Source of the DNA: Candidatus Omnitrophota bacterium
GTDB lineage: Bacteria > Omnitrophota > Omnitrophia > Omnitrophales > JACROU01
DNA length: 38,500 nucleotides
Reading direction: 5' to 3'
NCBI GenBank assembly: GCA_029261035.1
Contig: JAJDCD010000023.1
Span: 1 to 38,500, forward strand
The notes beneath the pieces were generated by a model that saw only the letters and a program-made list of their open reading frames with translations, was not told where the DNA came from and made no database searches. Positions 6,826 to 34,889 of this stretch are shown in pieces (within the stretch, counting starts at the first letter, position 1; every line of letters starts with the position of its first letter). The position numbers and the translations under genes were made by a program.

Positions 6826-9800
6826 ATGAAAAGAATTAAAATTTTATCTATATTAATGAGCATGGTATTTGTTATGCAGACAGTTATTATTTCTCCTGTG
6901 ACAGCAAATCCAGAAGCATCAACTTTAGGAATTAAAATTTCTCCACAATTGGCTACAGTTAATATGTATGCCTCTAAACATTCTGAAGGCAAGAAAGTTT
7001 TCTTTATTCAGGATGCACATTCTAATTATGAAGCACAACAAAAAGTGAGAGATATTTTAAAAGAAATGGTTCCTCAACTTAAAACCCAAACAGTTTTGGT
7101 TGAAGGAGCGACGAAGTCTTTAGAACCGCGTGTTTTTGATTTTTCTGATTCCGAGATTATAAATAAGCAGGTTGCAGAAAAGTTGGCTCAAAAAGGGTTG
7201 GTTAATGGGGCGGAGCTTTTTATGTTGGAGCCTGAGGCTAAGGATGTCTCCTTTTTAGGCTTGGAGAAAGCGGAGCTTTATACTCAAGAGCGTGTCGCTT
7301 TTATGAATGTGATTCAATTGAAGAGTGAAACAACTCGTTTTATTTCTTTACTCGAAAGTCGTTTGGATGCCCTAAAAGCTCGAGTGTTTAATAGTAAGCT
7401 TAGAGAGTTAGATCGTAAATTTTCTGATTACAAAAAGAAAAAGATTTCTTTGCTGGCCTGGTTTCGTGCGTTAGATGCTATGACCTTAAAGAACCTGATA
7501 TACCCTTTAAATGATCCAAAGAACATCCGGGATTATCCCAACTTAGTACGTCTTGCCATCAGTAATGAAGCGTCCACACAAATAAGAACAGACCTTTTAG
7601 CAAAAGAGAAGAAAGAGCTTACGACTCTTTTGGCCACATACCCCGAACAACAACAGTTGCTTTCTTTGATAGGGACCAACCAAGTTTCTAGGATTAACGA
7701 AGAGAGTGTTGCGCGCCTTTTTGAAGTAGCAGAGAGCTTAGGCGTTGATTGGAATCAATTTTTGCATATAAGAAAGTCTTTTATTTCTCAGCTTCTAACT
7801 TCTGATATGGATGGAAACGAGCTGTTTAGAGAGATGGAGATTTTAAAAGAAAGCCTTTATTTTGAATTAGCAGAAACAGAAAAAGAGAAAAAGGTTATTC
7901 AATTAGAGCATGAGCTACGTATTCTAAAAGATCTTTTGTCCTTAGAATCCACCCGTGAGACGTGGAAAAAAATCTTGGCTGAACTTAGTCAAATCAGTCC
8001 TAACGACTGGATGCGCCGTTATCAAGAGTTGGAGTTAAGTTCTAAAGGGTTGGAGTTGGAACTGATGAAGAAAGCTCAGACGGCTTTTGAGAACGCCGTT
8101 CGTTTTTATGATTTTGCACGGGATCGTGAGCAAGTATTTGCTGAGCGTATTCGTCAAGCATTACAAAAAGAAAAAAGTGATTCTGTAATTGTGTTAAGTG
8201 GAGGGTTTCATACAGAAGGTTTGTATTTGGAGCTGATTAAAGATCCGATACAGTTTTCTGTGATTCAACCGCAGCTTAAAAGTAAAACGGATATTCAAAA
8301 CTATTATGATGCTGTTTTCGAATCCAGAGATTTGAGTTTTGTAACAGGTAAGATGGCAGCAGTTCCTTATGCAGAGCTAGACCCTGAGCAACCTGCGAAT
8401 GCTTGGGTACGCGCGCAGATTGCAACTGAACTTTTAAATGAAGTAAACACTGCAGAGTTTAATGAAGCCTACTTAAATCAAAACCCTCTATTTGAACGGG
8501 CTGGGGCCACAGTTGTTGTCGAAGAAGGAATCATTCGTCTGGAACAACAAGAAGCATCAAGCTTAGGATTTGATGGGAGTCGCTGGACTCAGGAGCTTAC
8601 AATTGCTGGTTTAAAAGGACAGATGCAAAAGCTCATTCAAGATGGATTTGGAACGGAAGGAACTAGTTTTGCTTTGGTTGAAAATCCAAATGATAAAACA
8701 AGTTCTCTTAATATTTCTGCCGAAAATAGACAAGTAGAAGTTTTTTATACAAAAGATAGAACAGTCAGAGATATTTTAGAAGCTTTAATTAATTATAGTC
8801 CTGCAAGCGATATCCCTGTGGTCTTTAGTGTTAAGTTGAACCAGCTTGCAGAAGAGTATTTTCCTGATCTTGCAAGAAGAAGTAAGGTGCCTACAGAAGC
8901 TCCAAAACCTAAAGAATCTGTTATCAAAAGCACTTCTACAGAATTGACTTTGGTAGATTTTGAAAAAGTAAGTGTAGACGGTATTGCTTTTAAACTGCAG
9001 CTTAATTTTTTGGTAACAACACCAAACCAAGTAGATGTAAGGTACATCCCTTTGGGTGGTAACAATGTCCAGATCACGGTTGAGTATGGGCCTAAGGCGG
9101 ATGCGAAAACCATTCTTAAAGCATTGCTCAACAACCCTCAAGTAAGAGATCGGGAAGATATCTATTCAGCATTTCAAGAATTGTCTCAAGCTCAAGCAAG
9201 CAGTTTGGGAGAGAATTTAAAAATATTATCGAATGCGGAAATTGTTTCTAAACTCAGTGCTGTCATTAATGAGAATAGGGTGGCTTCCACAAGAGTTACA
9301 CCACCTTTGGAGTTGGCTTTAATCACATCAGAAAATCAGACTCTAGGTAGACCTTCTACTATTAGTCGAAGTTATTTGAATTCGGATAAAATATTGGTAG
9401 AAAAAGTAACTGTTACAGCTCATCCTCAGGAATCTATTTTGGTAATTGCTAAATCTATAGAGAGCTATCCACTTAGAGTTAGAAATGCATCTTCAGCAAT
9501 GCCTTTGGATGTTCGTTCTGCTTTTTCGAGCCTAGCACAAGGAAAAAGCAAAGTTATTGCTACTCAGGAATTGCCAGAAAGTGTTAGAGCGAAGTTGGCT
9601 GAGGTTATAGATGCGTCTAGTATTTCCGAAGTAAGTGCTGAAAGTTCTGTTCCGGTGGCCGTTTCTCCAGAATCGAAAGCTAAACCTATAGCATTAGATG
9701 TTCAAAATCTTTCAACGCCTCTTTCTAGTGCAAATGAAACAATACAAGCATTAACAGCTGTTGGGAGTCAGCCTCAACTAGCAATAGGTGCATCTATTCA

Positions 9801-11532
9801 TTTTTCCCCTAATTTGCTTTTTGCTTTAGCGCCTCGACCTGTGAGTCCTGATGGAACTTTTGTTCAAGATGAAGCTATTTCTCGTGTTGCACTTCCAGAG
9901 GTTAAAGTAGCTCCAGGGCTTCTAGTTCAAGAGAATTCATCGTTCAATGTTACTGCGACTCCTGCATTAGTGCCGGTGATGCCAGGAAAAAGTATTTTAC
10001 CAGTAAACCCAACGCGCTTTTTTATTGGGGAAAATTTAAATGTTGTTGGAGAAACTCAAATTAGTTTGGGACAAAACTCAGTTCTTATTATTGGGAATAA
10101 TGTAAGACTAGAAAACTTACGGTTAAATGTGGGTGATAATCAAAGGCTTGTTATAGGAGATAATGCGGTTCTTTCTGGAGTGCTTATTTTATTTCCTTTG
10201 GACAATAGAGCCCGAGAACCATTTACTACGGAGACCACAACGAGTCCCTCTTTACCTCTGGCGGTGATATCATCAAACACACAAGCTGCTTTGAATTTGC
10301 CTTCTGTTGCCGTTGAGGCTAGCGGCCAGCTGCTAATCCCTGAGGGAAATACAAATGTGAGTTTTCCTGAAGTTATTGTGGGTCAGGATACTCAAGCAAC
10401 TGTTAATCCATCCACTGGCGAAGTGGATACAAGTGTTCCTGATGCAGAGCTTGTTTTACAAGCGCGTAGTTTGGGGTTCCCTCAAGCTGGATTGCCGCTA
10501 CCAACGGTGAATCGTGTTATACCCAACCCTCGTTTCCCAACAACTCCTAATTTTCCGACGGCAGATCGCATTGCACAGCTGGGTGGCGTCGTAAGCACTC
10601 CAGAGAGTTTTCTGGAATACTTGTCTTTGTTTAGAGCTACCATTCCAAATAAGCGATTCACTCTTGAAGAGCAAGTAGCGTTAGCGGAAGTGGCTTTAGA
10701 AGATTCAAGATTTGTGAACCCTTTGATTGCAGATGGAATCATTCGTATTGGTTTACAAGATCCCTCAGTGCAGCTTCAGAACATGGAGACAAGCTTGGGA
10801 CGTGTTCAAACTAATTTGCAAACAGAAATTTTAAAAGCAGTGATTTTGAAACTCAAAAATAATCGAGTTTCGGTTACTTTGGCCTTGAGTGATCCGAGTA
10901 GTGTCTTTTCATTAAACAACGATGCTTACAAACAAGCGGTTGAATTTCATCTTCAGAATAATCCAAATGCAACTTTTCAATTTGTCCATTTAGGCTCTGC
11001 TGAGGATATAGAAAAAATTGATGAGCAGTTTTATCGATTTGGAGAACGTTTTAAAGTTATCCCCGCCACGTCTCAAAATTGGCAAATAGCGTTAAAAGGA
11101 CTTATGGGAGAAGAGTTGTTGCAAGTGGTGCGACGCTTGCCTGCAGGTTTACCGATTAAAACATTACAGCAACTTTATGGGAATAAACACATTTCTGTTT
11201 TATTACCCGCTCCAGCTTGGAAACAGAATGTTGAGCTGCCTAGTGAGTCTATTGTTAAAGTAAGTTCACTAGCTCAGGATACAGACTTTTTTCAGAATGC
11301 AGACCAGAACTACGGTATCGTAAATGACGTTGCTTTCTTGGAAATTAGTTTGGCACAATTAGTTTCGCTTTTTGAAGGTAAAAATTTAGAATTGAGACAA
11401 GTTATTCCTGGGGAAGTTTTTATTTATGCAGATAATTTCTTCAGTTTAAATCGAGATCAAATGCTTCAAGGGCTCATTGATGATATTCATGAGCAAGCGA
11501 TCCAACTACAACGCTTGGCATATCAGGCATAG
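6826..11532 (+). CDS. Giant secreted protein 1: TIKI/ChaN-like N-terminal domain plus unknown multidomain region
   Basis: This protein has 1568 residues. A Sec signal peptide (residues 1-27, basic start, hydrophobic core, VTA before the likely cut) is followed at once by EASTLG (30-35). Residues about 55-480 form a domain shared with the two giant proteins at 19771-34758: QDAH (His65), VEGA (Glu about 93), GLE...Y.QE, a long helical middle, and SGGFHTEGL (His462). Two GxxH-like motifs bracketing an acidic residue recall the TIKI/TraB/GumN and ChaN/EreA superfamily; this match is remote. After ASSLG (577-581) come two similar beta/alpha units, then ASSLG (791-795) and a low-complexity stretch. 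A hexapeptide-like beta region follows at about 1060-1120 (IGENLNV, IGNNVRL, IGDNAVL). ARSLG (1213-1217) and TSLG (1322-1325) precede a C-terminal alpha/beta region. The downstream function is unrecognised. AAGGGAAAAGGG upstream is the ribosome site. Confidence 0.85.
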   Translation: MKRIKILSILMSMVFVMQTVIISPVTANPEASTLGIKISPQLATVNMYASKHSEGKKVFFIQDAHSNYEAQQKVRDILKEMVPQLKTQTVLVEGATKSLEPRVFDFSDSEIINKQVAEKLAQKGLVNGAELFMLEPEAKDVSFLGLEKAELYTQERVAFMNVIQLKSETTRFISLLESRLDALKARVFNSKLRELDRKFSDYKKKKISLLAWFRALDAMTLKNLIYPLNDPKNIRDYPNLVRLAISNEASTQIRTDLLAKEKKELTTLLATYPEQQQLLSLIGTNQVSRINEESVARLFEVAESLGVDWNQFLHIRKSFISQLLTSDMDGNELFREMEILKESLYFELAETEKEKKVIQLEHELRILKDLLSLESTRETWKKILAELSQISPNDWMRRYQELELSSKGLELELMKKAQTAFENAVRFYDFARDREQVFAERIRQALQKEKSDSVIVLSGGFHTEGLYLELIKDPIQFSVIQPQLKSKTDIQNYYDAVFESRDLSFVTGKMAAVPYAELDPEQPANAWVRAQIATELLNEVNTAEFNEAYLNQNPLFERAGATVVVEEGIIRLEQQEASSLGFDGSRWTQELTIAGLKGQMQKLIQDGFGTEGTSFALVENPNDKTSSLNISAENRQVEVFYTKDRTVRDILEALINYSPASDIPVVFSVKLNQLAEEYFPDLARRSKVPTEAPKPKESVIKSTSTELTLVDFEKVSVDGIAFKLQLNFLVTTPNQVDVRYIPLGGNNVQITVEYGPKADAKTILKALLNNPQVRDREDIYSAFQELSQAQASSLGENLKILSNAEIVSKLSAVINENRVASTRVTPPLELALITSENQTLGRPSTISRSYLNSDKILVEKVTVTAHPQESILVIAKSIESYPLRVRNASSAMPLDVRSAFSSLAQGKSKVIATQELPESVRAKLAEVIDASSISEVSAESSVPVAVSPESKAKPIALDVQNLSTPLSSANETIQALTAVGSQPQLAIGASIHFSPNLLFALAPRPVSPDGTFVQDEAISRVALPEVKVAPGLLVQENSSFNVTATPALVPVMPGKSILPVNPTRFFIGENLNVVGETQISLGQNSVLIIGNNVRLENLRLNVGDNQRLVIGDNAVLSGVLILFPLDNRAREPFTTETTTSPSLPLAVISSNTQAALNLPSVAVEASGQLLIPEGNTNVSFPEVIVGQDTQATVNPSTGEVDTSVPDAELVLQARSLGFPQAGLPLPTVNRVIPNPRFPTTPNFPTADRIAQLGGVVSTPESFLEYLSLFRATIPNKRFTLEEQVALAEVALEDSRFVNPLIADGIIRIGLQDPSVQLQNMETSLGRVQTNLQTEILKAVILKLKNNRVSVTLALSDPSSVFSLNNDAYKQAVEFHLQNNPNATFQFVHLGSAEDIEKIDEQFYRFGERFKVIPATSQNWQIALKGLMGEELLQVVRRLPAGLPIKTLQQLYGNKHISVLLPAPAWKQNVELPSESIVKVSSLAQDTDFFQNADQNYGIVNDVAFLEISLAQLVSLFEGKNLELRQVIPGEVFIYADNFFSLNRDQMLQGLIDDIHEQAIQLQRLAYQA

Positions 11533-14159: not shown

Positions 14160-15416
14160 ATGAATAATCTTAAATGCATTATTTTGGGGGGTGGGCACGG
14201 AAAGAGACTTTATCCCTTAACCCAATTTCGTTCTAAGCCAGCGGTTCCTATCGGTACGAAGTACCGTCTTATTGACATTCCTATTAGCAACTCCCTTAAC
14301 TCTGGAATTAAAGATATTTATGTTTTAACCCAGTTTAATTCGGTTTCATTAAATAATCACATACACCAAACTTATAAGTTTGACTATTTCTCAGATACTA
14401 AAGTTCAGCTTTTGGCTGCAGAGCAGACCATGGGGAATATGAACTGGTTTCAAGGTACGGCCGATGCTGTAAGAAAACACATGACACACTATAGTTTGAA
14501 ACCTAATGATAATGTGCTCATTCTATCGGGAGATCATTTATATCGAATGGATTTTAATGAGGTGCTTCGCTTCCACATAGATAAAGATGCGGATATTACA
14601 CTTGCGGTGAACCCAGTCGAAGAGAAAGAAACGCGGCATTATGGGATTATGAACTTAGATGATGATGAGAGAATTGTCGATTTTAAGGAGAAGCCCAAAG
14701 AAAAGGCTCAGCTTAAAACAGTAGATTTGTCACCGGCATTAAAAAAGAGATATCACATTCCTCAAGATAAACCACACTACTTAGCTTCTATGGGCATTTA
14801 CATCTTTAAAGCTCGAATCTTAGAACAGCTCTTATTAGGGAATGAGTCTGATTTTGGGAAAGAAATTATTCCAAAAGCACTTTTTAAACATAAAGCGTAT
14901 GGTTACTATTTTAAAGATTATTGGCGTGATATTGGAACCATTGATAGTTTTTATGACTCATGTATGGAGTTGACAAAGACAGACTCTCAATTTAGTTTTT
15001 TAGCCCCACAAAAGATTTATACCCATCCTCGTTTTTTGCCTCCAACCACAATAGCTAAAAGTGTTATTGATCAAGCGGTTATTCCGGAGGGTTGTGTGCT
15101 TGAAGAGACTCATATAGAACGTTGTAGCGTTGGACTACGATCTATTTTAAAGAAAAACTCTCAAGTCGAAGATACGGTTTTAATGGGAGCGGATTATTAC
15201 GAGTGGAAAGTCCCTAAAAAATTCCCTCCAATTGGCATTGGAGAGAATACATTTATCCGTAAAGCTATTATTGATAAGAATGCACGTATTGGGAAAAATG
15301 TATCTATTCGTAATGAGAAAAATTTAGATAATTTTGATAGTTTGAACTATTGTATTCGAGATGGAATTGTTATTATTCCTAAGAATGGAATTATCCCCGA
15401 CGGCACAAAAATTTAG
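14160..15416 (+). CDS. glgC: Glucose-1-phosphate adenylyltransferase (ADP-glucose pyrophosphorylase)
   Basis: The 418-residue cytoplasmic enzyme makes ADP-glucose from ATP and glucose-1-phosphate, the committed step of bacterial glycogen synthesis. The nucleotide-binding N-terminus reads CIILGGGHGKRLYPLT, followed by RSKPAVPIGTKYRLIDIPISN with the effector/substrate Lys, then LAAEQ, WFQGTADAVR (GTADAVR is highly characteristic), LSGDHLYRMD, GIM....IVDFKEKP, and Y.ASMGIYIF. The C-terminal half carries left-handed beta-helix repeats (IGIGENTFIRKAIIDKNARIGKNV). The pyrophosphorylase loop has Lys where Thr is common (GHGKRL). No other glycogen gene is adjacent. Its stop overlaps the convergent JAMM gene by 4 bp. 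Confidence 0.95.
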   Translation: MNNLKCIILGGGHGKRLYPLTQFRSKPAVPIGTKYRLIDIPISNSLNSGIKDIYVLTQFNSVSLNNHIHQTYKFDYFSDTKVQLLAAEQTMGNMNWFQGTADAVRKHMTHYSLKPNDNVLILSGDHLYRMDFNEVLRFHIDKDADITLAVNPVEEKETRHYGIMNLDDDERIVDFKEKPKEKAQLKTVDLSPALKKRYHIPQDKPHYLASMGIYIFKARILEQLLLGNESDFGKEIIPKALFKHKAYGYYFKDYWRDIGTIDSFYDSCMELTKTDSQFSFLAPQKIYTHPRFLPPTTIAKSVIDQAVIPEGCVLEETHIERCSVGLRSILKKNSQVEDTVLMGADYYEWKVPKKFPPIGIGENTFIRKAIIDKNARIGKNVSIRNEKNLDNFDSLNYCIRDGIVIIPKNGIIPDGTKI

Positions 15417-15835
15417 GAGAGTATTTGTATCTCTTCTTCTATAAATTGTTTTGACTCTTCATTTAAAATCCAAGATTGCATTTGTGAAAACTTCCCCTGA
15501 TTAATAGAGCAGATAACATAAGAGAAGATAGGCCACGCAAGGCTTCTGTCTGTTTCTGATGCCATTGACGGGTGGTCTGGGTGGGAATGATAAATACCTA
15601 TCACTTTTAACCCTTCATTTTCTGCAGCTTTTTCTATAGCAGCATACTGTTTTGGATCTAAATCATAGCGGTCATTTTTATGATCTGGGTTTAAGTTGCT
15701 GACAGGATAAAGCCGCTGAATTTCTTTTTTGGTGGGACCCCGTTTTCCTACAAGCAAACCGCATACTTCTTCAGGATACCCTTTTTGTGTGAGAGCTATT
15801 AACTCGCTGTGGATTTTATGGGGGAGCGTGAGCAT
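15413..15835 (-). CDS. JAMM/Mov34 (MPN+) family metalloprotease
   Basis: This 140-residue protein has the complete JAMM zinc motif: Glu in YPEEVCGLLVG near residue 20, and HSHPDHPSMASETD, which fits H-x-H-x7-S-x2-D. Bacterial relatives cleave isopeptide bonds or C-terminal tails of ubiquitin-like proteins such as ThiS/MoaD-type sulfur carriers, or act in siderophore and cysteine synthesis. No sulfur carrier gene lies beside it, so the substrate is unknown. I start at ATG 15835 because AAAGGA precedes it at good spacing. An in-frame ATG at 15880 falls inside an intergenic repeat and would add 15 residues without family similarity. Confidence 0.85.
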   Translation of the reverse strand: MLTLPHKIHSELIALTQKGYPEEVCGLLVGKRGPTKKEIQRLYPVSNLNPDHKNDRYDLDPKQYAAIEKAAENEGLKVIGIYHSHPDHPSMASETDRSLAWPIFSYVICSINQGKFSQMQSWILNEESKQFIEEEIQILS

Positions 15836-15874
15836 GAGCGTCCTTTGTGTGTTAGGGCCTTTGTTTCTCTGTGC

Positions 15875-15943
15875 TGTCATCCCCGCGAAAGCGGGGATCC
15901 AGAGTTAAATATAACTGGATTCCCGATCAAGTCGGGAATGACA
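15875..15943. repeat. Inverted repeat of the GTCATCCCCGCGAAAGCGGGG type
   Basis: Two small hairpins (CCCCGC-GAAA-GCGGGG and TCCCGA-TCAAG-TCGGGA) lie inside a larger palindrome from TGTCAT to ATGACA, between the JAMM gene and ilvD. Sequences of this kind are common dispersed intergenic repeats in many genomes. Confidence 0.65.
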
Positions 15944-19770: not shown

Positions 19771-22700
19771 TTAAGCCATAACTGCAACGAGGCGTTTAGC
19801 TTTCATGAGCTGAATTAAGCCTGTGAGGACGCTCTCAGAGAGGGTGAAGCTGCCATCAGAGTCTTTTTCAAAAAGACCATCGGTTTCTAAGCCGAGGGCG
19901 AGATAGGCCGAGGCCATGGCATGAGCGGCTGCATACTCTTCGTCTTTGGAGAATTTGTCTGAATTGTATTTAAGGCGTTTTACATCTTCTCCCAAATCGG
20001 ATTTGAACTCCGAGCTGACTAAAGCCACATTTTCCGGAGACAGATTACTAAGTCCAGCTTTTCTAAGCATGGGACGAATAAATTGAGCGGCTCTTTGATT
20101 AATTAGATTTTGAACATCATATTCATTTAAAGATGAAAGCCCTTGAGAAGCATCTATTTGAGCTATTTTTGGATAAAACACAAATCCCATTCTTTTTCTT
20201 TGGAATAGGTTTGGATATGCTTTATTCAAACGATTTGCTTTTTGTCTGTTACCAATAAGGAAAAATAGTGCGGCACGGTCCGAGTTATAAATTTGATTTG
20301 TCTCTGCGGTTTCAAAACGTTTCACAAGGTCTTCATTTAGGGGCATAAAAACAGTTCCGACGCGATCTCCTTTGTAGTTCGTAACGCCATCCATAATTTG
20401 TTGCGCTGCCTTGTTTACATCTATGACATTTGCTTGAATAGTAGTAGGGAATGAGGTGGGCGCATTCATATTTAATTCAGTCTTGATGGAAGGAAGGATG
20501 TTATTAAAATAATCTTCAATGAAGGCGTTAGGAGTTTCAAACTCTCCTAAGATTGCTCTCATAACCCATTCGCTCAAAGTAACAGGGATTTTGTTGTCTA
20601 AGGAGTTTAAAGGAAGGGGTTGTAGCCCTGTTGGCAGTTCTTCAATATCAATTCCAGACAATAGCGTATAGACTTGGGCCCCTAAAGAAGAGGCGGAAAT
20701 GCGTGTTCGATTTCGATATTCATTCATTAATTCGTTGACGTTTGAAATACGACTAGAGATAGGGGAAGCAAGCGCTTGTGTTCGTTGAAAACCAGGAACG
20801 TTAACTCGAAGAGTTTGTCCACGGCCTGTCGGAGTAGTAGCTGATGAAGCTGCTTGTCCAACTCCTGTACTTTCATCTAAAGTTGTTTGCCATGTCGCTA
20901 TGGCTTTGATTAATTGGGAAACATCTTGTGCCATAAGATCTAAAGAGGCATATCGGTTTAGAGGGTTGGCATTCAATGCTTGATCTACAATCGTGTCCAA
21001 ACGCTCTGTGAGTTCTTTAGGTAAGGATACCCCTCGACGTTCAAGTATCAAACTTGGACGTTCATATTTAAGCTTTTGTCGAAGCATTGTGGTAGCAATG
21101 CCATCAAACTCATTTTTTTGTGTAAAATCGATTTCGTAGGGCAATCGACCGGTTAAAGCTTGGTACAGACTGACCCCTAAGGCATAAATATCAGAGCGTT
21201 GACTTTCTTTTCTGATGTATTGTTGATACTCGTCAATTTGATCTATATTGATGAGTCCTGCATTCCATAGGTCTTGAGTGGTTTGCCCTATTAATTCAGG
21301 AGCCATAAATTCTGGGGTTCCGTATATGATTTCTTCTTCTTTAATTTCGGAGCTCCATTTAAATAGGCCTAAGTCAATGACAACAACATTACCGTCTATA
21401 TCCATAATCAAATTAGCAGGTTTGATGTCCCTGTGAACACCCTCTCCTTTATCAGGATGTTTGGCTTTTGAGTGAAGTTCAAATAGGGCTGTTGCTGCTT
21501 TAACTCCAAAAATATCTAAAAGATCTTTGAGCATAGTTAATTTTGCGTCTTGTTTTCCAACAAAAAGAAGTTGGTTTTCTGTGATCAAGTTTAAAGGCTT
21601 TCCTTCAATAAACTCCATAGCATAACTATTTCCATTTTCGGCAACATATCTGGGAATAGACTGAATACCTGCTTGAGAGGTGAGGTAAGAGTGGTTTTCT
21701 TTCTCTTTTTTAAATAGATCAACATTGTAAGGATTTGTTTGCTCGATCAGTTGTTTTATTGCTAAAAGTTGGCCGTCGGCGCGTTCCACTAAGTAAACAG
21801 CACCAAAACCCCCCACACCAAGAGAGCGAAGGACTTTAGCTTTGACGGCGCCTAGAGATTCAGCTTGTACTTGGATCTCATTTATTTGCTCTGAAAGAAA
21901 TTCTGGAGCAAAGCCTACTTCTTCTAAGGCGTTCCGTATCTCTGCTGGATCCTGAGGGTTGAAGCTCTCAAAGGCTGTTAATTGGGGGGGGGCTTGATAA
22001 AGGTTTGCCATTTGTCCTAACGATTGAGCTTGAATAACTTCATCCAGTAAGCGGTCTGTTTCATAGATCTTCACTCGATCAAATTCAAAGAAATTAAATC
22101 CATTAAAGGAAACGCGAATGAAGGGCTCTAAAACGTTATTGAGTTTAGCCATTCTCTGTTTGGCAAAGATTTGTTGGGCACGTTCTGGAGAATCGCGAGA
22201 GAGTTGTGTGAAGAGGGTTCTCAGAGTATCTGTTAATTTATTTTTGAGTATTTTTTTGTACTCTTCATAAGGCTCATTATAATCTATAGGACTAATCTTT
22301 AAACTTTCATAAAAATCATCGGACCAATTGAGATCTTTTACCTGTAAGGGAAAGATTTTATTCAAAAGCGTTTTAACTGCTTTTTCTAACATTGCAGGAG
22401 CCAATGCCGGGGAAGCCAACTCAACTAAGGCGGCCCTGGAAATAGGCGTGCCCGTAATTTGATATCCAAATTGTTGAAATAGAAATCTAACTAGGTCTTT
22501 GTTGATGCTATTTTCTGAATAGTCTAGCCCAGAAAGAAAATCGGTTAACATTTCTTGAAATTCATCTAAACCTTCAATGCCTGTCTCCGCTACTTCGTCT
22601 GAACTATCCAACTCATCTAAATCTTCCAACTCCTCAATTTTCATCTCCTCTACTTCCCATTCTTTTTCTTGCAATTGAGCTTCACCCAATACGCTTAAGT

Positions 22701-25700
22701 CTATTTTTTCAAAAATATCTTTAAGGTCTTCTGCTTCTGTATAAAAAGCCTCGAATTCGGAGCTGGAAATAGGTTGTAAACCTTTGCTTTCCAGCGCGTA
22801 ATTAAGGGCGTATAAGATTTCCCAACGCACTATTTCTGCTTCTAGCTTTTTATCTAAGTCCTGAAGGATAGAATAATTGGCTAGGGGATTTCCGCTAAGA
22901 GCTACATAGAACAGGTCTACAAGGCTTTCGGGAATAACATCTAAGGAGAGGTTGACATCGATTTCGAATTTTCTAGCCAAATCACTCCTTACATTCTTTA
23001 GATAATTTTCAAATACAGTTCCAAATCTTTCTCGATTTAGTTCATTCTTTTGAGAGAGTTTTCTTAAGGAAAGGCTCATAGCTTGAAGACCGCGGAATTC
23101 ATTGATGTTTATAGTTTCGTTTGTAGTTCGACTTAAAATAGCATTGAGGGCTTGCTCTAGCTGTTCTTTCATCATATCGGATACGATTCTTTCCAACCGT
23201 TTTTCCAATTGGCGTGCTGCGGATCTATTTTTAGGGTTGGGACTCAAAAGGGTGGTGATAGCATCTTGAAGCCTTTGTGGAAAAGAGAAGTCAGCGACAC
23301 CAGACTCTTTTAAGCTTTGGTCTAAAGATTGAATATCCTGAGGCTGTATCCCTGCGATTTTCTTTTTTGCTTGGTCCTTGCTTAATCCAATGAGGTCGAA
23401 AGGAAGTTTTCCAGTCAACAAGTGATGGAAGACAACTCCAAGTGAAAACATGTCTGACTTTTGAGATACTTCCCGTATGTTTCCGGCGGCCATTTCTGGG
23501 GAGTTGTAAGCAATAGACCCTCGTCGGGTATTCTCGGGTAGAGTTTGTGTTTCTTCTTGTGTGATGGCTAAACCTAAATCGAAAAGTCGGACAGTTCCGT
23601 AGGTATCTATATAAAAGTTTTCTAATTTGAAGTCGTTGTTAATTTGGCCCGTTTGAGCTTGGTAATTTTGTACAGCTTTGGCGATGGCAAGCATATCAAA
23701 AACACGCGTAAATAAAGAGGCGGATTCATAATCTTTTATAGTGTTAGGAAAAACGTTTCTATTAGCGAAATATTTATCATCAAGAAATACCCCGCCTTCT
23801 AATAGCTCTATCGCAATATAAGGCTGTTTCCATTTTATGGAGCTTTCGGGATCTGTCACCACTTCGTAATTTTGCTCATAGATACGTACCACATGAGGGG
23901 ACTTTTCCGCGGCTTTTAAGATCTGAGCTTCACGGGCAAAAACACGAGTTGCTCTTTGTAAGGCTTCCTTACGACTCCCTAATTCTCGGGTTAACATTCT
24001 AAGGTAACGGTTGGAAGGTCTTTTGACTGCGACCATTGGAATATTTGTGCCGAGTGTTTTAATGGGAGCTTCTAATTCTACGCGGTCGATAACTCCCATT
24101 GATCCTTCTCCGATACTTTGAGAGGTTTTTACATTGGCTTTTGTGACAACTCTTTTGTCGCCGAGAGATTGGGCACTGAAAATACTTTCTTCAAATGGAG
24201 ACGTTGGGAATTTTTCAAAATCATCTTCCTCCTCTAGGAGAGGTAGGGTGGTGAAAGTAGTGTGTTCAGCAGAACCTCTTTCTCTATCCTGTCGGGCTTT
24301 GTAGCGTTTAAGAATAGAATCAAGAAATTTATCGTCTGATTTTTTTTCAGGAGCTTCTTTTTTTTCATCAAGAGGCGCTATATTGAAAAAATCCAAATCA
24401 ACATCGGCAAAGGTTTCTTCTTTTTCGATCACTCGTTTAGGCTTTACAATTTCATTGACAGAAATCGTAATATTGTTGGTGTTTATTATCTCTATAATTT
24501 GACCGAGTTCTCTTATTAAGCTCTCCGTTGAGGGACGTTCTTCAGGCCGCATGCGAACCGCTTTGTACATCAACTCAACCAAAGGATTTAATACTTCTTC
24601 AGGAATTGTTAATTCAATACTTCCAAATTCTTTCATGTCGCTTAAGAATTTTTCTTTAAAATCTTCTAAGGAAATGGGACTTTTACCCTTATTTAAAACA
24701 TCATCAAAATAGAGTCTCATTATGCTGAAATCTGTTCCGTAAGGGGCTGTTCCAGTAAACAAGAAATAAAGATTGACCCCCCAAGCATAAATGTCTGCTT
24801 TTTCGTCAATAGCATTAAGTTCACCTACTAACATTTCTGGAGAAATATTGATTAAACTTCCAATTTCTTTTGTTATGGAGCCCTTTCGAATTGCTTCTTT
24901 GGTTTGGGCCAGACCAAAATCAATTATTTTGACATTGCCATCTGACGTTAAGAGGGTATTGCCTAGTTTTAAATCTAGATGCACAATACCTTTAGAATGA
25001 ATATAGCTTAGGCCTTTGGCAAATTCTTGCATAATTTGAAGACGGTCTTTAAAGCCATATTCTTGAAATTGGCTATACAAATCAGAGGTATCCCCTGAGC
25101 CTTCTTTTTTAAAGATCAGCTCTATGAGCTCTTTGCCTTCGACAAGCTCCATCAATAGATACTCTGTTTCTTTTAAATTATCTGGAAGCTCTTGTTCGAA
25201 AGAAAGATCCGTCATTTTCCCATCTGTAATATATTCAGGGATGTAAGGAGAACCTTTCAGTCGTTCTAAAAGAGTAGATTCATTATTAAAACGGATCCTA
25301 GATTTTTCAGCGTCTTCGTAGGGACCCGGGGTATTGGTTTTTAATGCGAAATGACGATCTATATTAGAGATATCAAAGACAGTTCCTTGGGTGCCTTGCC
25401 CTAAGCGTCTTTCGACTGAGAGTGTTCCTAGAGCATTGGCAACGACGGTTTCTTCCAAAATAAAACTTTTGCCAGGCTCTACGAATTCTTCAACAGAATC
25501 AGCAGCAAAAATAGGTGGTGCAGCCGCTTGCCTTGGAGGCGGGAGAGTCTCTCCCGTAATAGCCGTTTGATTTCCAGTGACAGAAACGTAGTTTGGCACT
25601 CCATCCAGAGTTTCACCGGCGTCCTCTTGTGAATCAATAAATGTAAGAGGTATTCTGGGGTCAGTAACAATATCTACATATTGAATGCGAACACTATCAG

Positions 25701-28700
25701 GGGAGTCTATTGTCAAATCTGAGATAGCGGTTATGATTTGATCTAGTTGTTTAATCGCAGAAACGAGATCTATTCGATCGTCTTTTTCTGGATCCATCAG
25801 CTTTTGGATTATGTGAATGATGCGTTCAAAAATTTCTTTTGGAATAATTAGTTCTAGCCCAAAATCTTCTAAATCAGATTTGAAATTTGTGCTTAGCACT
25901 TTTTCTAACAAAACAGAAACTTTAGAAGGGTCATTTGGGAATCTTACTTGGAGTTGTTTTTTCTCTTCTGTTTTATTGAAAATTCTTTGGGCCAGCTCTG
26001 GAAGAGAATTACCGGTTATAGGCAGGCTGCCTGTTAAAATTTTGTAAGCCAATACACCTAATGCATAAATGTCGGACTTTTCACTATTTGCGTTAGCGTC
26101 ACTTACTATCATTTCGGGGGAATAGTAGTACGGAGTTCCAACAGCCACACCTTCTCTTTCTTTTGTGTCCAATTTTCTAGCGAGCCCAAAATCAAGCAAC
26201 CTTACCTCTCCCGAAGCTGTTTTCATCAAGTTTGCAGCTTTGATGTCTTGATGTATGGTTCCCTTAACGTGTGTTGATAGAATAGCTTTAGCGGCTTCTC
26301 GTATAGTCTCTAGCCGGTCCAAGAGATCATAGGAAGAAACATCTGGGTTCGAATATTTTTGTTCTAAATTTTCTCCTTCAACAAGTTCCATGACAATAAA
26401 TAGATCATTGTCTTCGAACGGGATATTTTCTATTTCAAACTGGAGCTGAGACAGGGTTCCATATTCAATGATTTTGGGAATGTAGGGGGATTCGTCGAGT
26501 TCTTGCATGAATTTTCCTTCATTAATAAATCGAGTTCTTTGTCTTTCGTTGGCAGATTGTGCATTCTTCATTACTTTTAGAACAAACCGTTTATCTCCTT
26601 GCTGTAATTCGTATACGATACCCATTCCGCCTCTTCCTAGTTCTTTAACAATGGTGTAACTGCCTAGGCTGAAGCCATCGGCTGATTGAATGTCTACATT
26701 AGTTTGAACTAAGGAATCTGCTTTTGGTTCAACGAGTTTTTGAATGGAAGTTATGTTTTCAGCAGGAAAGGCTTTTATTTGCTCTGGGCCAGCGTCATCT
26801 ATGAGCTGAATTGTTTTTTCTAATCCTTCAATGGCTTCATCAATATTAAGACGGCCTTCTGGTGTTGCATTGAGAAGACCCGTTATTAAGTTGATGAGGC
26901 TATCAAAAATAGTTTCTGGAATAAAAACCTGTGTCTTTGCTCTATTAACTAAGTCACTATGGAATTGGTATCTCCACTCTTCCCGTAAAATTTCTATCCC
27001 TTTGTTTGCATCCTGGTTAAGTCGGCGGTGTTGTTTAACAAGCATTTCTTCAATACTTCTTCCTTTAATGGCAGGGTGACCGGTAAGGATCTGATAGAGG
27101 ATAGCACCCAGAGAATAAACATCGCTCGGTTCTAGAGCTTTTGTTTCTCCGCGTAATAACATTTCTGGAGAAACTGTTTGGATTGTTCCAACTGTTCTTA
27201 GTTGATTCCCAAATTCAGCTAAATCTTCTTTTGTTATTGCCAGTCCAAAATCGAGAAGTTTTACATTTCCATTGGCATCCAGGATGAAGTTGGATGGCTT
27301 AACGTCTCTATGAAGGATTCCTCGTTTCTGAACATCTTTAATGGCTTTGGCTGCTTCGAGAATTGCTTTAAGTCGACTGGAAAGATCAAACTGTTGATAG
27401 CTGAGATGCATTGCCTGCTTGTTAATAAACTGATCTTCAAAGGTTTGTCCGGAAACAAGTTCCATAATTAAGTAAAGGTCGTTTGGGTTCAGTTGAATTT
27501 TATCTGAGCTTACAGTTAGGTCCCTAACGGAGCCGCTTTCGAATGTGTCTGCAACATAAGGGGAGGTGCTTAGTAATTTTTGTAGGCTAATTTCTCTTTG
27601 GACTTTTTGAGGGTCTCTTTGGCTGGAATCAAAGATTTTCATTGCATAGGACTTGTCTCCTTGTCTCAAAGCATAAATAACTCCTTGAGCGCCTCTTCCA
27701 ATTTCATGTTCGATTGTGTAAGACCCTAAAGAGTTTGCCGTGCTTACTTCAACATCAAGGCTTGAAGTCAAAGCAATAGGAATCGAAGTAGGTGTGCCGT
27801 CAATAGAGATGGTTACGGTTCCAACTTGAGAATAGTTGTTGGAAACATTTTTAATTCCTTCTCGTAAGTCCGAATTTTCTGAAGTGGGGAGGATAGCTAT
27901 TTCAAATAATGTTCCTTCGTTATTGGAAGCCGTGATGATGTTTCCTTCTGTTTTTATTGGAGTTAAGGAGCCGTCAAGCGATTCGATAATGGAATTAACT
28001 GTATCCGTTGAAATAACCACATCCGTTGTGGCCACTTCAATGCTGGTGTTGACACTCACAAATAAAAACTGAGAGTTATCTTCCAGAGGATGAGCGGTTT
28101 TAAACAGAACATTCTCTGGGGAAGGTTGCTTGAGTAGTCTGTCTGCCGTTTTTTTATCTACGAGTGATGTGATGATGTTAACTGAGACCCCATTAATATT
28201 AAATTGCATTCCATTGTTCATAGTTTGACGGCCTGCAATATTTTTCTTTGAAGCATTTGATACAGCAGCAGAATAAGCAGATACGGTGCTGGGAGCCAAT
28301 TGACTTAGAAGGCTTTCGGTAAGCATAAAGGTGCTCTGAGCCGTAGGGGAGCCCTCAACGAAGCTGCTTCCAGGTTTCGTTGTGAAGTAGCTTACAGCTT
28401 TTTCCAGGTCTTTGTTTTTTCCGGCAAGGGTTCTCCAATAAAGAGAGGCGTCTTGGTCTAATCCGACTTGAGGTACCAGTAACGCATAGGCTGTATTGGA
28501 GTCTTTAAAATAGTCTGTTAATTCTTTGGCATGAAAACCGCCTACGACTAAAAAAGCTGTTTTGTCATTTTGGTTTTTCATTAGTTGGTTTAAATTTTTG
28601 AAAAGCTCCTTGTTTCGTTTTAGGGCACTTTCATAAAAATTTTCCGCTTCTCTCAAAACTAAAACAGATTCATAAAAATTGTCTTCAACTTGATAGCTCA

Positions 28701-29967
28701 TTAAATACTCTTTGAAATACTGATTTAGAACTTTCCAGTAATTGGAATCGGTTAAAGTTTTTTTGTGCGATTTAAAATAAGCGTATTCTTCATCGGTTAC
28801 TTCCAATACCCATAGTTTTTCTATTAAACGAAGCATCCGGTCTCGTTCCGCAATATTTTTTTCTCTGCCGCTTTCGCTAAACGCATTAATGAGGAGAAGG
28901 TAGATGTCTTCTAGGTCCGTAAAAAATCGATCAGCATCTATGGAAAGAGTAGAATTTAAATAAGTGATATATTTGTTTGTTTCATTTAAAACTTTAGGAT
29001 GAGCCGGTGCTTGACGAAGCATTTGTTCTAGATTTTGGACAAACAGGCGCCCCTCTTGTTTGGATTCAAAAGAAAAGGGAGAGCGAAACACCCCTAAAGA
29101 TTGAAGTTCTTGAGTGAGCTGGGGTTTATTTATTTTGTTTTCAATATCAATCAGGTTTTTCATCGTTTGATAAGAAGAAAAGCGGCTAAGAGAAATATTT
29201 TTTACTTTAGCTAAGCCCTCTAAGCTAACAAAGTGCTCTTTAATACTTTGTGGATTTTTTTCAAAATGCTTGATGGTTTCATCCAGTTTTTTTAGAAAGT
29301 AGGAAAATGCTCTCCGCTTTAATTCATCAATTGCTTTTCGGAGGAGGGGGAGATCAAATTGAATGCGTTGTTTTTTTTTCTCAGCATTTTTAAAAGCCAT
29401 TACATTTTGATTATATAAAGAAATATCCTCGATGCCGAAAAGGCGTGCGTTTGGATTGTAGTTTGCCTTGTAATATTCAGAGCCATCGAGCTTGCCTTCA
29501 TTAAGTAAAAAATCAGAAATAGCTCTGCGAGCTTTGTCGATGGGATTGGCTGTTAAAACAGAGTAATCCAGTTTTTTCTGGACGTTGGTTCCTTCCAGAG
29601 CAACTAAGGGAGCTTGGTTTGGGAAAAGCTGAGGAGCCTTTTTTGTTAAATAATCATAAATTTTTGCTGTAGAGTATTGAGCTTTAATATTATTGTGAGG
29701 GTCTTGCATCACAAAGATAAGACGATCTACTTTTTTATCAGGAACAAAAACTTCTGTGATGAAACCGAATTTGTCAGGGATCGATATGTTATTGAGTGTG
29801 TCTTTCAGTCCAGAGAAGGAAATATTTGTTTTGTTAACAGGAGTTAGATAAGAACTTTGAGCAGAAACCGGACCTGTGGCAAATACACTTTGAAGAAGAA
29901 AAAAGCAGAGTGTAAGCCAAGCGATTGTTCGCTTCCAAATTGTAATGGGCCGAGAGTTGCGAATCAT
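19771..29967 (-). CDS. Giant exported protein 2: TIKI/ChaN-like domain plus five Ser/Thr kinase domains
   Basis: This protein has 3398 residues. The N-terminus is basic, then hydrophobic (TIAWLTLCFFLLQSVFA), ending near VSA at about 36, a Sec-type signal. Residues about 75-510 share the two-histidine domain of the other giant proteins: MQDPH, ALEGTN, GIEDISLYNQN and VGGFHAKEL at about 476. Five Hanks-type kinase domains follow. K1 (about 750-1055) has GRGAQG, AMKIF, HRDVKPSN, DFG. K2 (about 1100-1415) has GRGGMG, VLKVM, HQDIKAAN, DFG. K3 (about 1513-1825) has GQGTQG, ALKTN, HLDLKLGN, DFG. K4 (about 1935-2265) has GEGSMG, AVKRP, NNDFKLEN, DLG. K5 (about 2705-3020) has GVGGFG, AIKQL, HRDIKPAN, DLG. 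All five keep the ATP lysine, catalytic Asp, Asn and metal Asp. Acidic helical linkers lie between K3 and K5. A-x-S-L-G motifs precede K1, K4 and K5 and other junctions. AGAGGAG is the ribosome site. The C-terminal ~300 residues are unrecognised. Confidence 0.9.
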   Translation of the reverse strand: MIRNSRPITIWKRTIAWLTLCFFLLQSVFATGPVSAQSSYLTPVNKTNISFSGLKDTLNNISIPDKFGFITEVFVPDKKVDRLIFVMQDPHNNIKAQYSTAKIYDYLTKKAPQLFPNQAPLVALEGTNVQKKLDYSVLTANPIDKARRAISDFLLNEGKLDGSEYYKANYNPNARLFGIEDISLYNQNVMAFKNAEKKKQRIQFDLPLLRKAIDELKRRAFSYFLKKLDETIKHFEKNPQSIKEHFVSLEGLAKVKNISLSRFSSYQTMKNLIDIENKINKPQLTQELQSLGVFRSPFSFESKQEGRLFVQNLEQMLRQAPAHPKVLNETNKYITYLNSTLSIDADRFFTDLEDIYLLLINAFSESGREKNIAERDRMLRLIEKLWVLEVTDEEYAYFKSHKKTLTDSNYWKVLNQYFKEYLMSYQVEDNFYESVLVLREAENFYESALKRNKELFKNLNQLMKNQNDKTAFLVVGGFHAKELTDYFKDSNTAYALLVPQVGLDQDASLYWRTLAGKNKDLEKAVSYFTTKPGSSFVEGSPTAQSTFMLTESLLSQLAPSTVSAYSAAVSNASKKNIAGRQTMNNGMQFNINGVSVNIITSLVDKKTADRLLKQPSPENVLFKTAHPLEDNSQFLFVSVNTSIEVATTDVVISTDTVNSIIESLDGSLTPIKTEGNIITASNNEGTLFEIAILPTSENSDLREGIKNVSNNYSQVGTVTISIDGTPTSIPIALTSSLDVEVSTANSLGSYTIEHEIGRGAQGVIYALRQGDKSYAMKIFDSSQRDPQKVQREISLQKLLSTSPYVADTFESGSVRDLTVSSDKIQLNPNDLYLIMELVSGQTFEDQFINKQAMHLSYQQFDLSSRLKAILEAAKAIKDVQKRGILHRDVKPSNFILDANGNVKLLDFGLAITKEDLAEFGNQLRTVGTIQTVSPEMLLRGETKALEPSDVYSLGAILYQILTGHPAIKGRSIEEMLVKQHRRLNQDANKGIEILREEWRYQFHSDLVNRAKTQVFIPETIFDSLINLITGLLNATPEGRLNIDEAIEGLEKTIQLIDDAGPEQIKAFPAENITSIQKLVEPKADSLVQTNVDIQSADGFSLGSYTIVKELGRGGMGIVYELQQGDKRFVLKVMKNAQSANERQRTRFINEGKFMQELDESPYIPKIIEYGTLSQLQFEIENIPFEDNDLFIVMELVEGENLEQKYSNPDVSSYDLLDRLETIREAAKAILSTHVKGTIHQDIKAANLMKTASGEVRLLDFGLARKLDTKEREGVAVGTPYYYSPEMIVSDANANSEKSDIYALGVLAYKILTGSLPITGNSLPELAQRIFNKTEEKKQLQVRFPNDPSKVSVLLEKVLSTNFKSDLEDFGLELIIPKEIFERIIHIIQKLMDPEKDDRIDLVSAIKQLDQIITAISDLTIDSPDSVRIQYVDIVTDPRIPLTFIDSQEDAGETLDGVPNYVSVTGNQTAITGETLPPPRQAAAPPIFAADSVEEFVEPGKSFILEETVVANALGTLSVERRLGQGTQGTVFDISNIDRHFALKTNTPGPYEDAEKSRIRFNNESTLLERLKGSPYIPEYITDGKMTDLSFEQELPDNLKETEYLLMELVEGKELIELIFKKEGSGDTSDLYSQFQEYGFKDRLQIMQEFAKGLSYIHSKGIVHLDLKLGNTLLTSDGNVKIIDFGLAQTKEAIRKGSITKEIGSLINISPEMLVGELNAIDEKADIYAWGVNLYFLFTGTAPYGTDFSIMRLYFDDVLNKGKSPISLEDFKEKFLSDMKEFGSIELTIPEEVLNPLVELMYKAVRMRPEERPSTESLIRELGQIIEIINTNNITISVNEIVKPKRVIEKEETFADVDLDFFNIAPLDEKKEAPEKKSDDKFLDSILKRYKARQDRERGSAEHTTFTTLPLLEEEDDFEKFPTSPFEESIFSAQSLGDKRVVTKANVKTSQSIGEGSMGVIDRVELEAPIKTLGTNIPMVAVKRPSNRYLRMLTRELGSRKEALQRATRVFAREAQILKAAEKSPHVVRIYEQNYEVVTDPESSIKWKQPYIAIELLEGGVFLDDKYFANRNVFPNTIKDYESASLFTRVFDMLAIAKAVQNYQAQTGQINNDFKLENFYIDTYGTVRLFDLGLAITQEETQTLPENTRRGSIAYNSPEMAAGNIREVSQKSDMFSLGVVFHHLLTGKLPFDLIGLSKDQAKKKIAGIQPQDIQSLDQSLKESGVADFSFPQRLQDAITTLLSPNPKNRSAARQLEKRLERIVSDMMKEQLEQALNAILSRTTNETININEFRGLQAMSLSLRKLSQKNELNRERFGTVFENYLKNVRSDLARKFEIDVNLSLDVIPESLVDLFYVALSGNPLANYSILQDLDKKLEAEIVRWEILYALNYALESKGLQPISSSEFEAFYTEAEDLKDIFEKIDLSVLGEAQLQEKEWEVEEMKIEELEDLDELDSSDEVAETGIEGLDEFQEMLTDFLSGLDYSENSINKDLVRFLFQQFGYQITGTPISRAALVELASPALAPAMLEKAVKTLLNKIFPLQVKDLNWSDDFYESLKISPIDYNEPYEEYKKILKNKLTDTLRTLFTQLSRDSPERAQQIFAKQRMAKLNNVLEPFIRVSFNGFNFFEFDRVKIYETDRLLDEVIQAQSLGQMANLYQAPPQLTAFESFNPQDPAEIRNALEEVGFAPEFLSEQINEIQVQAESLGAVKAKVLRSLGVGGFGAVYLVERADGQLLAIKQLIEQTNPYNVDLFKKEKENHSYLTSQAGIQSIPRYVAENGNSYAMEFIEGKPLNLITENQLLFVGKQDAKLTMLKDLLDIFGVKAATALFELHSKAKHPDKGEGVHRDIKPANLIMDIDGNVVVIDLGLFKWSSEIKEEEIIYGTPEFMAPELIGQTTQDLWNAGLINIDQIDEYQQYIRKESQRSDIYALGVSLYQALTGRLPYEIDFTQKNEFDGIATTMLRQKLKYERPSLILERRGVSLPKELTERLDTIVDQALNANPLNRYASLDLMAQDVSQLIKAIATWQTTLDESTGVGQAASSATTPTGRGQTLRVNVPGFQRTQALASPISSRISNVNELMNEYRNRTRISASSLGAQVYTLLSGIDIEELPTGLQPLPLNSLDNKIPVTLSEWVMRAILGEFETPNAFIEDYFNNILPSIKTELNMNAPTSFPTTIQANVIDVNKAAQQIMDGVTNYKGDRVGTVFMPLNEDLVKRFETAETNQIYNSDRAALFFLIGNRQKANRLNKAYPNLFQRKRMGFVFYPKIAQIDASQGLSSLNEYDVQNLINQRAAQFIRPMLRKAGLSNLSPENVALVSSEFKSDLGEDVKRLKYNSDKFSKDEEYAAAHAMASAYLALGLETDGLFEKDSDGSFTLSESVLTGLIQLMKAKRLVAVMA

Positions 29968-34758: not shown

Positions 34759-34889
34759 TATAGTATCCTTATAAGTTAAAACCATTCAGGAAATGTACCA
34801 CAGAGAGCACCTAAACACAAACTAGATATTGGTTTACGTCTACAGTGCTAAGTCTTTTCCCAACAGTGCTTTATCTTATAGAAGTATGC

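Follow-up and report, generated by a model that had tools for sequence, protein, structure and literature searches.

The window, which is the whole stretch of 38,500 nucleotides that was analysed, lies in a 2.7 Mb draft genome (G000) and harbours three giant open reading frames (ORFs), P1–P3, whose features are listed in Table 1. The giant proteins begin with a signal peptide, as judged by eye. Behind that of P2 lie five kinase domains, at least one of which is degenerate (kinase 4); kinases in an exported protein are unusual, unless the protein acts within another cell. An ORF among the giant genes (15413–15880) looks by eye like a small JAMM/MPN-type metallopeptidase.

Table 1. Features of the three giant ORFs in the window (motif positions in brackets are residue numbers).
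Feature	Position	Strand	Remarks
P1, giant ORF	6826–11532	+	1568 aa
P1 signal peptide and TIKI/ChaN/Ere-like N-terminal domain	6826–8274	+	D63-x-H65, E93, R434, GGFH462; from conserved residues, AF2 model and structural matches
P1 ASSLG (577)	8554–8568	+	first junction past the N-terminal domain; low pLDDT
P1 ASSLG (791)	9196–9210	+	
P1 ARSLG (1213)	10462–10476	+	kept as AQSLG in the G001 orthologue
P1, last strict motif to C-terminus	10474–11529	+	final residues AYQA
P2, giant ORF	19771–29967	-	3398 aa
P2 signal peptide and N-terminal domain	28453–29967	-	end approximate
P2 ANSLG (744)	27724–27738	-	kinase 1 match begins 2 aa later
P2 kinase 1	26830–27720	-	
P2 GFSLG (1098)	26662–26676	-	kinase 2 match begins 2 aa later
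P2 kinase 2	25765–26658	-	
P2 ANALG (1510)	25426–25440	-	non-consensus; kinase 3 begins 4 aa later
P2 kinase 3	24514–25416	-	
P2 AQSLG (1932)	24160–24174	-	ahead of kinase 4
P2 kinase 4	23206–23952	-	degenerate: HRD to NND, DFG to DLG
P2 AQSLG (2647)	22015–22029	-	
P2 AESLG (2702)	21850–21864	-	ahead of kinase 5
P2 kinase 5	20926–21834	-	
P2 ASSLG (3092)	20680–20694	-	start of C-terminal module
P2 C-terminal module	19774–20679	-	final residues VAVMA
P3, giant ORF	30160–34785	-	1541 aa
P3 signal peptide and N-terminal domain	33376–34785	-	end approximate
P3 AKSLG (1304)	30862–30876	-	sole strict site of P3
P3 C-terminal module	30163–30861	-	final residues QTSA

The pentapeptide and the domain junctions

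A preliminary description, placed at 6826–11532 and thus on P1 alone, without P2 and P3, had reported a recurring A-x-S-L-G motif at domain junctions of all three proteins. AxSLG occurs four, five and one times in P1, P2 and P3, compared with 0.05, 0.08 and 0.03 copies expected from shuffled sequences. None of 2000 shuffles matches the count of P1 or P2; since 3% do so for P3, that protein is a weak case when taken alone. Genome-wide, a degenerate DNA pattern for [QE]AxSLG gave 107 matches, compared with 8 for its reversed control. In the 48 giant ORFs of at least 1000 residues (148,075 residues), AxSLG was observed 186 times with 4.5 expected and GxSLG 52 times with 4.0 expected. The recurrence thus extends beyond what had been described, and the counts lie far from the composition-based chance against which the claim had been set. 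All single-residue variants tested in these 48 ORFs are at chance level (observed/expected: AxTLG 1/2.7, AxALG 4/4.0, AxSMG 1/0.7, SxSLG 4/5.0, TxSLG 4/3.0, VxSLG 3/4.7), and the small ORFs adjoining have 2 motifs with 0.9 expected.

These class counts allowed the listed sites to be sorted. The three strict sites of P1 (577, 791 and 1213), six of P2 (744, 1098, 1932, 2647, 2702 and 3092) and AKSLG of P3 (1304, given before as about 1297) are retained. EASTLG (31) of P1 belongs to a class at chance, and TSLG (1322) of P1 and GSSMG (533, given before as about 526) of P3 are likewise unsupported by the class counts. The class of ANALG in P2 is also at chance, but the location of this sequence just ahead of kinase 3 speaks for it, and it is possibly a decayed site. 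A further copy in P1, AESLG (302), is within the folded N-terminal domain and is probably a chance match.

The 237 SLG-type sites are encoded by 136 distinct nucleotide versions and no other reading frame has more than nine motif matches, which indicates selection on the protein and rules out a DNA-level element or a frame artefact. The motif serine is encoded by AGT at 141 of these sites, compared with about a quarter of background serine codons; some copies have probably spread by duplication. A lipase nucleophile elbow was rejected as an explanation of GxSLG, as x is Ala, Ser, Asn, Gln or Lys, like in AxSLG, and a hydrolase context was not seen. Nor is the motif a general trait of exported giants, as an adhesin-like ORF of 7137 residues in the same genome has one copy. 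Motif density differs widely among the giant ORFs, and a family ORF of about 16,198 residues (G000 C26:18888-67481) has merely eight.

The motifs are located between domains, as had been proposed. Among 24 Pfam matches in nine proteins, none contains a motif (7.4 expected, P = 5e-5) and six start within 30 residues past one (1.6 expected), although this test is modest, as the matches are best stretches entered by hand. Among 314 BLAST matches between giant proteins, which are not independent of each other, the start coincides with a motif on both sides in 82, compared with 2.7 for random positions; the sites are therefore also module joints. The first motif follows the GGFH of the N-terminal domain by 54–340 residues in 41 of 43 proteins and the motif almost never lies within that domain. 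The median spacing between motifs is about 400 residues, and the last is at a median of 268 residues from the protein end. Hydrophobicity falls at the motif, the surroundings are hydrophilic and proline is enriched upstream; in AF2 models, pLDDT is low at the 577 motif of P1 and upstream of the 744 motif of P2, at the edge of a fold. Internal motifs are kept at 195 of 266 positions at a mean identity of 31%. The modules include kinases, macro domains, histidine phosphatases, WD40, LRR and TPR repeats, ARMT1-like domains, methyltransferases and HTH domains. A recurrent strict site between folded domains, as in a polyprotein, is therefore present.

The N-terminal domain and the protein termini

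An alignment of the three N-terminal regions revealed a domain (N-domain) that recurs in about 40 more open frames of the genome, of which the longest has 16,199 residues. It is present in many copies in all 39 genomes of the order that were searched and in 85 of 145 of the phylum. The family is almost confined to Omnitrophota records, with the addition of a few from Elusimicrobia and two oddly labelled MAGs. His65, Glu93, Arg434 and His462 are invariant in 40 paralogues, and Asp63 is found in 36 of them; the His, Glu, Arg and His are also invariant across a 36-row alignment of the phylum.

The AF2 model of the N-domain has a pLDDT of 80 (about 90 in the P1 core) and displays the parallel β-sheet core of the TIKI/ChaN/Ere fold. 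The best VIA-align rows for this model are EreC (Z 9.1), ChaN (8.8), HopBA1 (8.7) and BcR135 (7.7), with unrelated rows at 6.4 or below. Foldseek alone gave no match at E ≤ 0.001 and Pfam ChaN is sub-threshold (E 0.041), so that the kinship is remote. A PDB sequence search found no relative, a viral fold library yielded no match at E ≤ 0.001, and searches of viral contigs with P0002 and of genome contigs with one N-domain returned no related loci. The residues follow the catalytic order of the superfamily, acid-x-His, Glu, basic residue and His, with Asp rather than Glu as the first acid. In RRSP, a MARTX effector and TIKI-fold endopeptidase, the catalytic residues are E3900-x-H3902, E3930, R4001 and H4030 (PMC6254334), and D63-x-H65, E93, R434 and H462 of the N-domain have the same order with near-identical spacing. 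Based on the predicted model and the alignments, the N-domain is TIKI/ChaN/Ere-like with its putative catalytic residues kept. It shares fold, residue order and spacing with members of the TIKI/TraB/ChaN/Ere superfamily (Tiki, EreC, ChaN, HopBA1 and RRSP), but differs by a large helical insert and by its N-terminal fusion to giant modular proteins. Near stand-alone N-domain ORFs of about 520–640 residues are seen in other Omnitrophota (L222, L226, L227, L229, L231, L240 and L256), and are perhaps the ancestral form.

The opposite end is also shared. Complete giant proteins of G000 terminate in Ala in 44 of 45 cases, with Ala-Ala in 36, and those of the relatives' set in 28 of 35, whatever their junction motif; this C-terminus is possibly a sorting or recognition signal. 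An amphipathic-looking stretch precedes the terminal Ala in G000 (window ends 11529, 19774 and 30163). The N-domain is missing from four or more giant ORFs in this genome (C16:204496-210687, C16:213757-222108, C24:422996-426340 and C24:426897-430847), which nonetheless show a signal peptide, motifs and the Ala-Ala end. This subfamily has a near-identical signal region (YAARPxS) and similar C-termini. Two contig-end ORFs, C9:1-8337 and C3:33442-41646, open with near-identical sequence; that of C9 may be an extra copy, or a piece left when a repeat-rich giant gene was assembled.

Junction codes in related genomes

Among the 39 genomes of the order, clear enrichment of the SLG DNA pattern is confined to the own family. 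Unbiased k-mer enrichment identified equally strict junction signatures in the relatives, so the expected enrichment across related genomes was found, but with a motif that differs by genome. In most relatives the signature is R-[SA]-E-[LVMAIT]-R, at positions equivalent to those of SLG. RSExR is observed 233 times with 3.1 expected and its substitutions are at chance, a strictness like that of SLG; RAExR (45 copies) represents replacement of Ser by Ala at about one site in six. G014 has the SLG code, a relaxed RxE[LVM]R is found in G022 and G025, and G020 has an LSDxR code with sites mostly from one protein. The codes are mutually exclusive by genome: RSE is found 0 times in G000 (2.2 expected), and G021 has 2 SLG (2.8 expected) and 51 RSE sites (1.1 expected).

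Homologous modules can start with unlike codes, as exemplified by SLG in G014 and RGELR in G025 at 46% identity. Such starts rest on few cases, since among 24 BLAST matches across codes only 2 have a motif at the beginning on both sides. The N-domain tree intermixes SLG and R genomes. Constraining the SLG rows to one clade is 236 log units worse (AU test, p = 2.6e-14, for 31 rows picked after a larger tree of 93 rows had been seen). Some code labels of the first tree were assigned per protein and were imperfect (G020 rows appeared as SLG); later labels are per genome. From these sequence comparisons, the code goes with the genome and not with the N-domain clade, which points to a reader acting in trans, and the motif-bearing giants without an N-domain imply that this reader need not act in cis. 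No N-domain residue tracking the code was found in mixed clades.

Possible readers and alternative roles

We consider it fairly probable that the giant proteins are modular precursors that are exported and whose linkers bear sites for a single reader in each genome; this reader would most likely be an endoprotease and would coevolve with the sites. Such a precursor would open with a Sec signal peptide, followed in most cases by a TIKI/ChaN/Ere-like N-domain and then by folded modules with pentapeptide-bearing linkers between them, and would close with a C-terminal module finishing in Ala, usually Ala-Ala. The pentapeptide would be recognized by the trans-acting reader, which would sever the precursor into modules after export, and joint change of reader and sites would give the codes of the lineages: [AG]xSLG, R[SA]E[LVMAIT]R, RxE[LVM]R and LSDxR. 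Export, cutting, the single reader and coevolution are steps that we infer. In our judgement the chances are about even for a broader proposal, an order-wide exported polyprotein system with dozens of precursors per genome, whose modules (kinases, macro domains and methyltransferases among others) would be severed at a pentapeptide code, and in which the whole code (reader plus hundreds of sites) would have switched among lineages while orthologous precursors persisted. The preliminary description had likened the motif to a peptidase site; strictness, linker location and lineage-specific switching fit this likeness, whereas cleavage, the cut position and the protease itself keep the standing of a proposal. 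The single strict site of P3 and the eight motifs of the 16,198-residue ORF count against cutting, as does the shared Ala C-terminus, which cutting leaves unexplained.

A co-occurring protease had been suggested as a check. Peptidase_C11 (0 of 39 genomes of the order), C1 (1 of 39), S8 (10 of 39, patchy) and S41 (14 of 39, patchy) are each excluded as a universal reader. The SLG-type [VSATI]-x-[AG] matches the -3/-1 pattern of signal peptidase I; upstream of the sites, hydrophobicity does not exceed the protein mean, and the pattern is not matched by the R-type code. S26 is a single housekeeping-like copy in most genomes. The N-domain, being universal in the order with conserved catalytic-type residues, is the obvious candidate reader in trans. 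In a stronger version it would itself be the processing protease and cut the pentapeptide in cis and in trans, as an autoprocessing protein. Its many copies in the order and wider presence in the phylum, the modeled fold, the RRSP-like invariant residues and the failure of the four peptidase families to be universal all favor this version, but we regard it as rather unlikely. Motif-bearing giants without the domain exist, short near stand-alone N-domain ORFs occur elsewhere in the phylum, no residue of the domain was seen to follow the code where clades are mixed, and TIKI-fold members also include esterases and haem binders. Moreover, since the code follows the genome, dozens of N-domain paralogues would have to shift specificity in concert; one shared reader is the better match for genome-wide switching.

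A motif for docking or attachment, coevolving with its receptor (a chaperone, an export receptor or a scaffold) while the proteins stay intact, would be equally expected to be strict, located in linkers, lineage-specific and read in trans, and would leave most of the traces seen for cutting. We nevertheless consider it unlikely, as the placement between folded modules and at module edges fits cutting better and sites 15–30 residues apart are less natural for docking. The other possibility raised at the outset, joints left by domain shuffling, is borne out in that module exchange edges coincide with the motif. A seam that is presently functionless is very improbable, despite the copy-like use of AGT: with all substitution classes at chance, drift is evidently purged, and homologous modules bear unlike codes in different genomes. 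Modification of the serine, by glycosylation or another group, would account for its invariance in the SLG type and in the listed LSDxR sites, but has scarcely any probability, given the Ala that replaces it in the R type. The preferred reading thus remains the exported precursor with one shared reader, most likely an endoprotease.

Several known systems are comparable. MARTX toxins are also large secreted proteins with several effector domains, whose linkers are severed after delivery. Their cysteine protease domain is activated in the host cell. We know of no strict repeated pentapeptide in them, and the TIKI-like domain here, present in most precursors, is lacking in four or more giant ORFs that bear the motif. 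The RXLR/EER motif of oomycetes stands once, close to the N-terminus, in small effectors of eukaryotes, in contrast to the many copies per giant precursor here. It resembles the R-type code in being a short sequence with Arg in exported proteins, and it is proteolytically processed (PMC11754927). The P97/P102 adhesins of Mycoplasma hyopneumoniae are paralogous large exported proteins with a recurring short cut motif, S/T-X-F|X-D/E, whose protease is not firmly identified (PMC4772806). They are fewer, unrelated in sequence and surface adhesins, their motif is looser, and a lineage-wide motif change is not described in the passages considered.

Giant ORFs of this same phylum, often with few annotated domains and linked to predation or symbiosis, were reported by Seymour et al. 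2023 (PMC10066038). The passages considered term most of them poorly conserved and describe neither a shared N-domain, a common C-terminus nor a junction code. The junction code was also not found described in the open-access literature searched. Some bacterial giant proteins could be cleaved, although the proteases and recognized motifs are hard to predict (PMC11573180), and the integrity of such large proteins is unclear (PMC12057145). For the giants of Omnitrophota, their fate now has a testable answer, with named sites, expected fragment sizes following the median motif spacing, a candidate enzyme and naturally occurring variants of specificity. Should cutting be confirmed, the lineage codes would document, as few natural cases do, how a processing code and its substrates change jointly over hundreds of sites, and sequence-specific proteases could be obtained from the reader. 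Some modules of the exported giants are metabolic-enzyme-like: L100 has ARMT1-like and AprA-type methyltransferase modules, and others lie near residue 1314 of G000 C26:165184 and near residue 1298 of C20:42874. By eye, one metabolic-like module resembles a nucleotide-sugar dehydrogenase and another resembles GAPDH.
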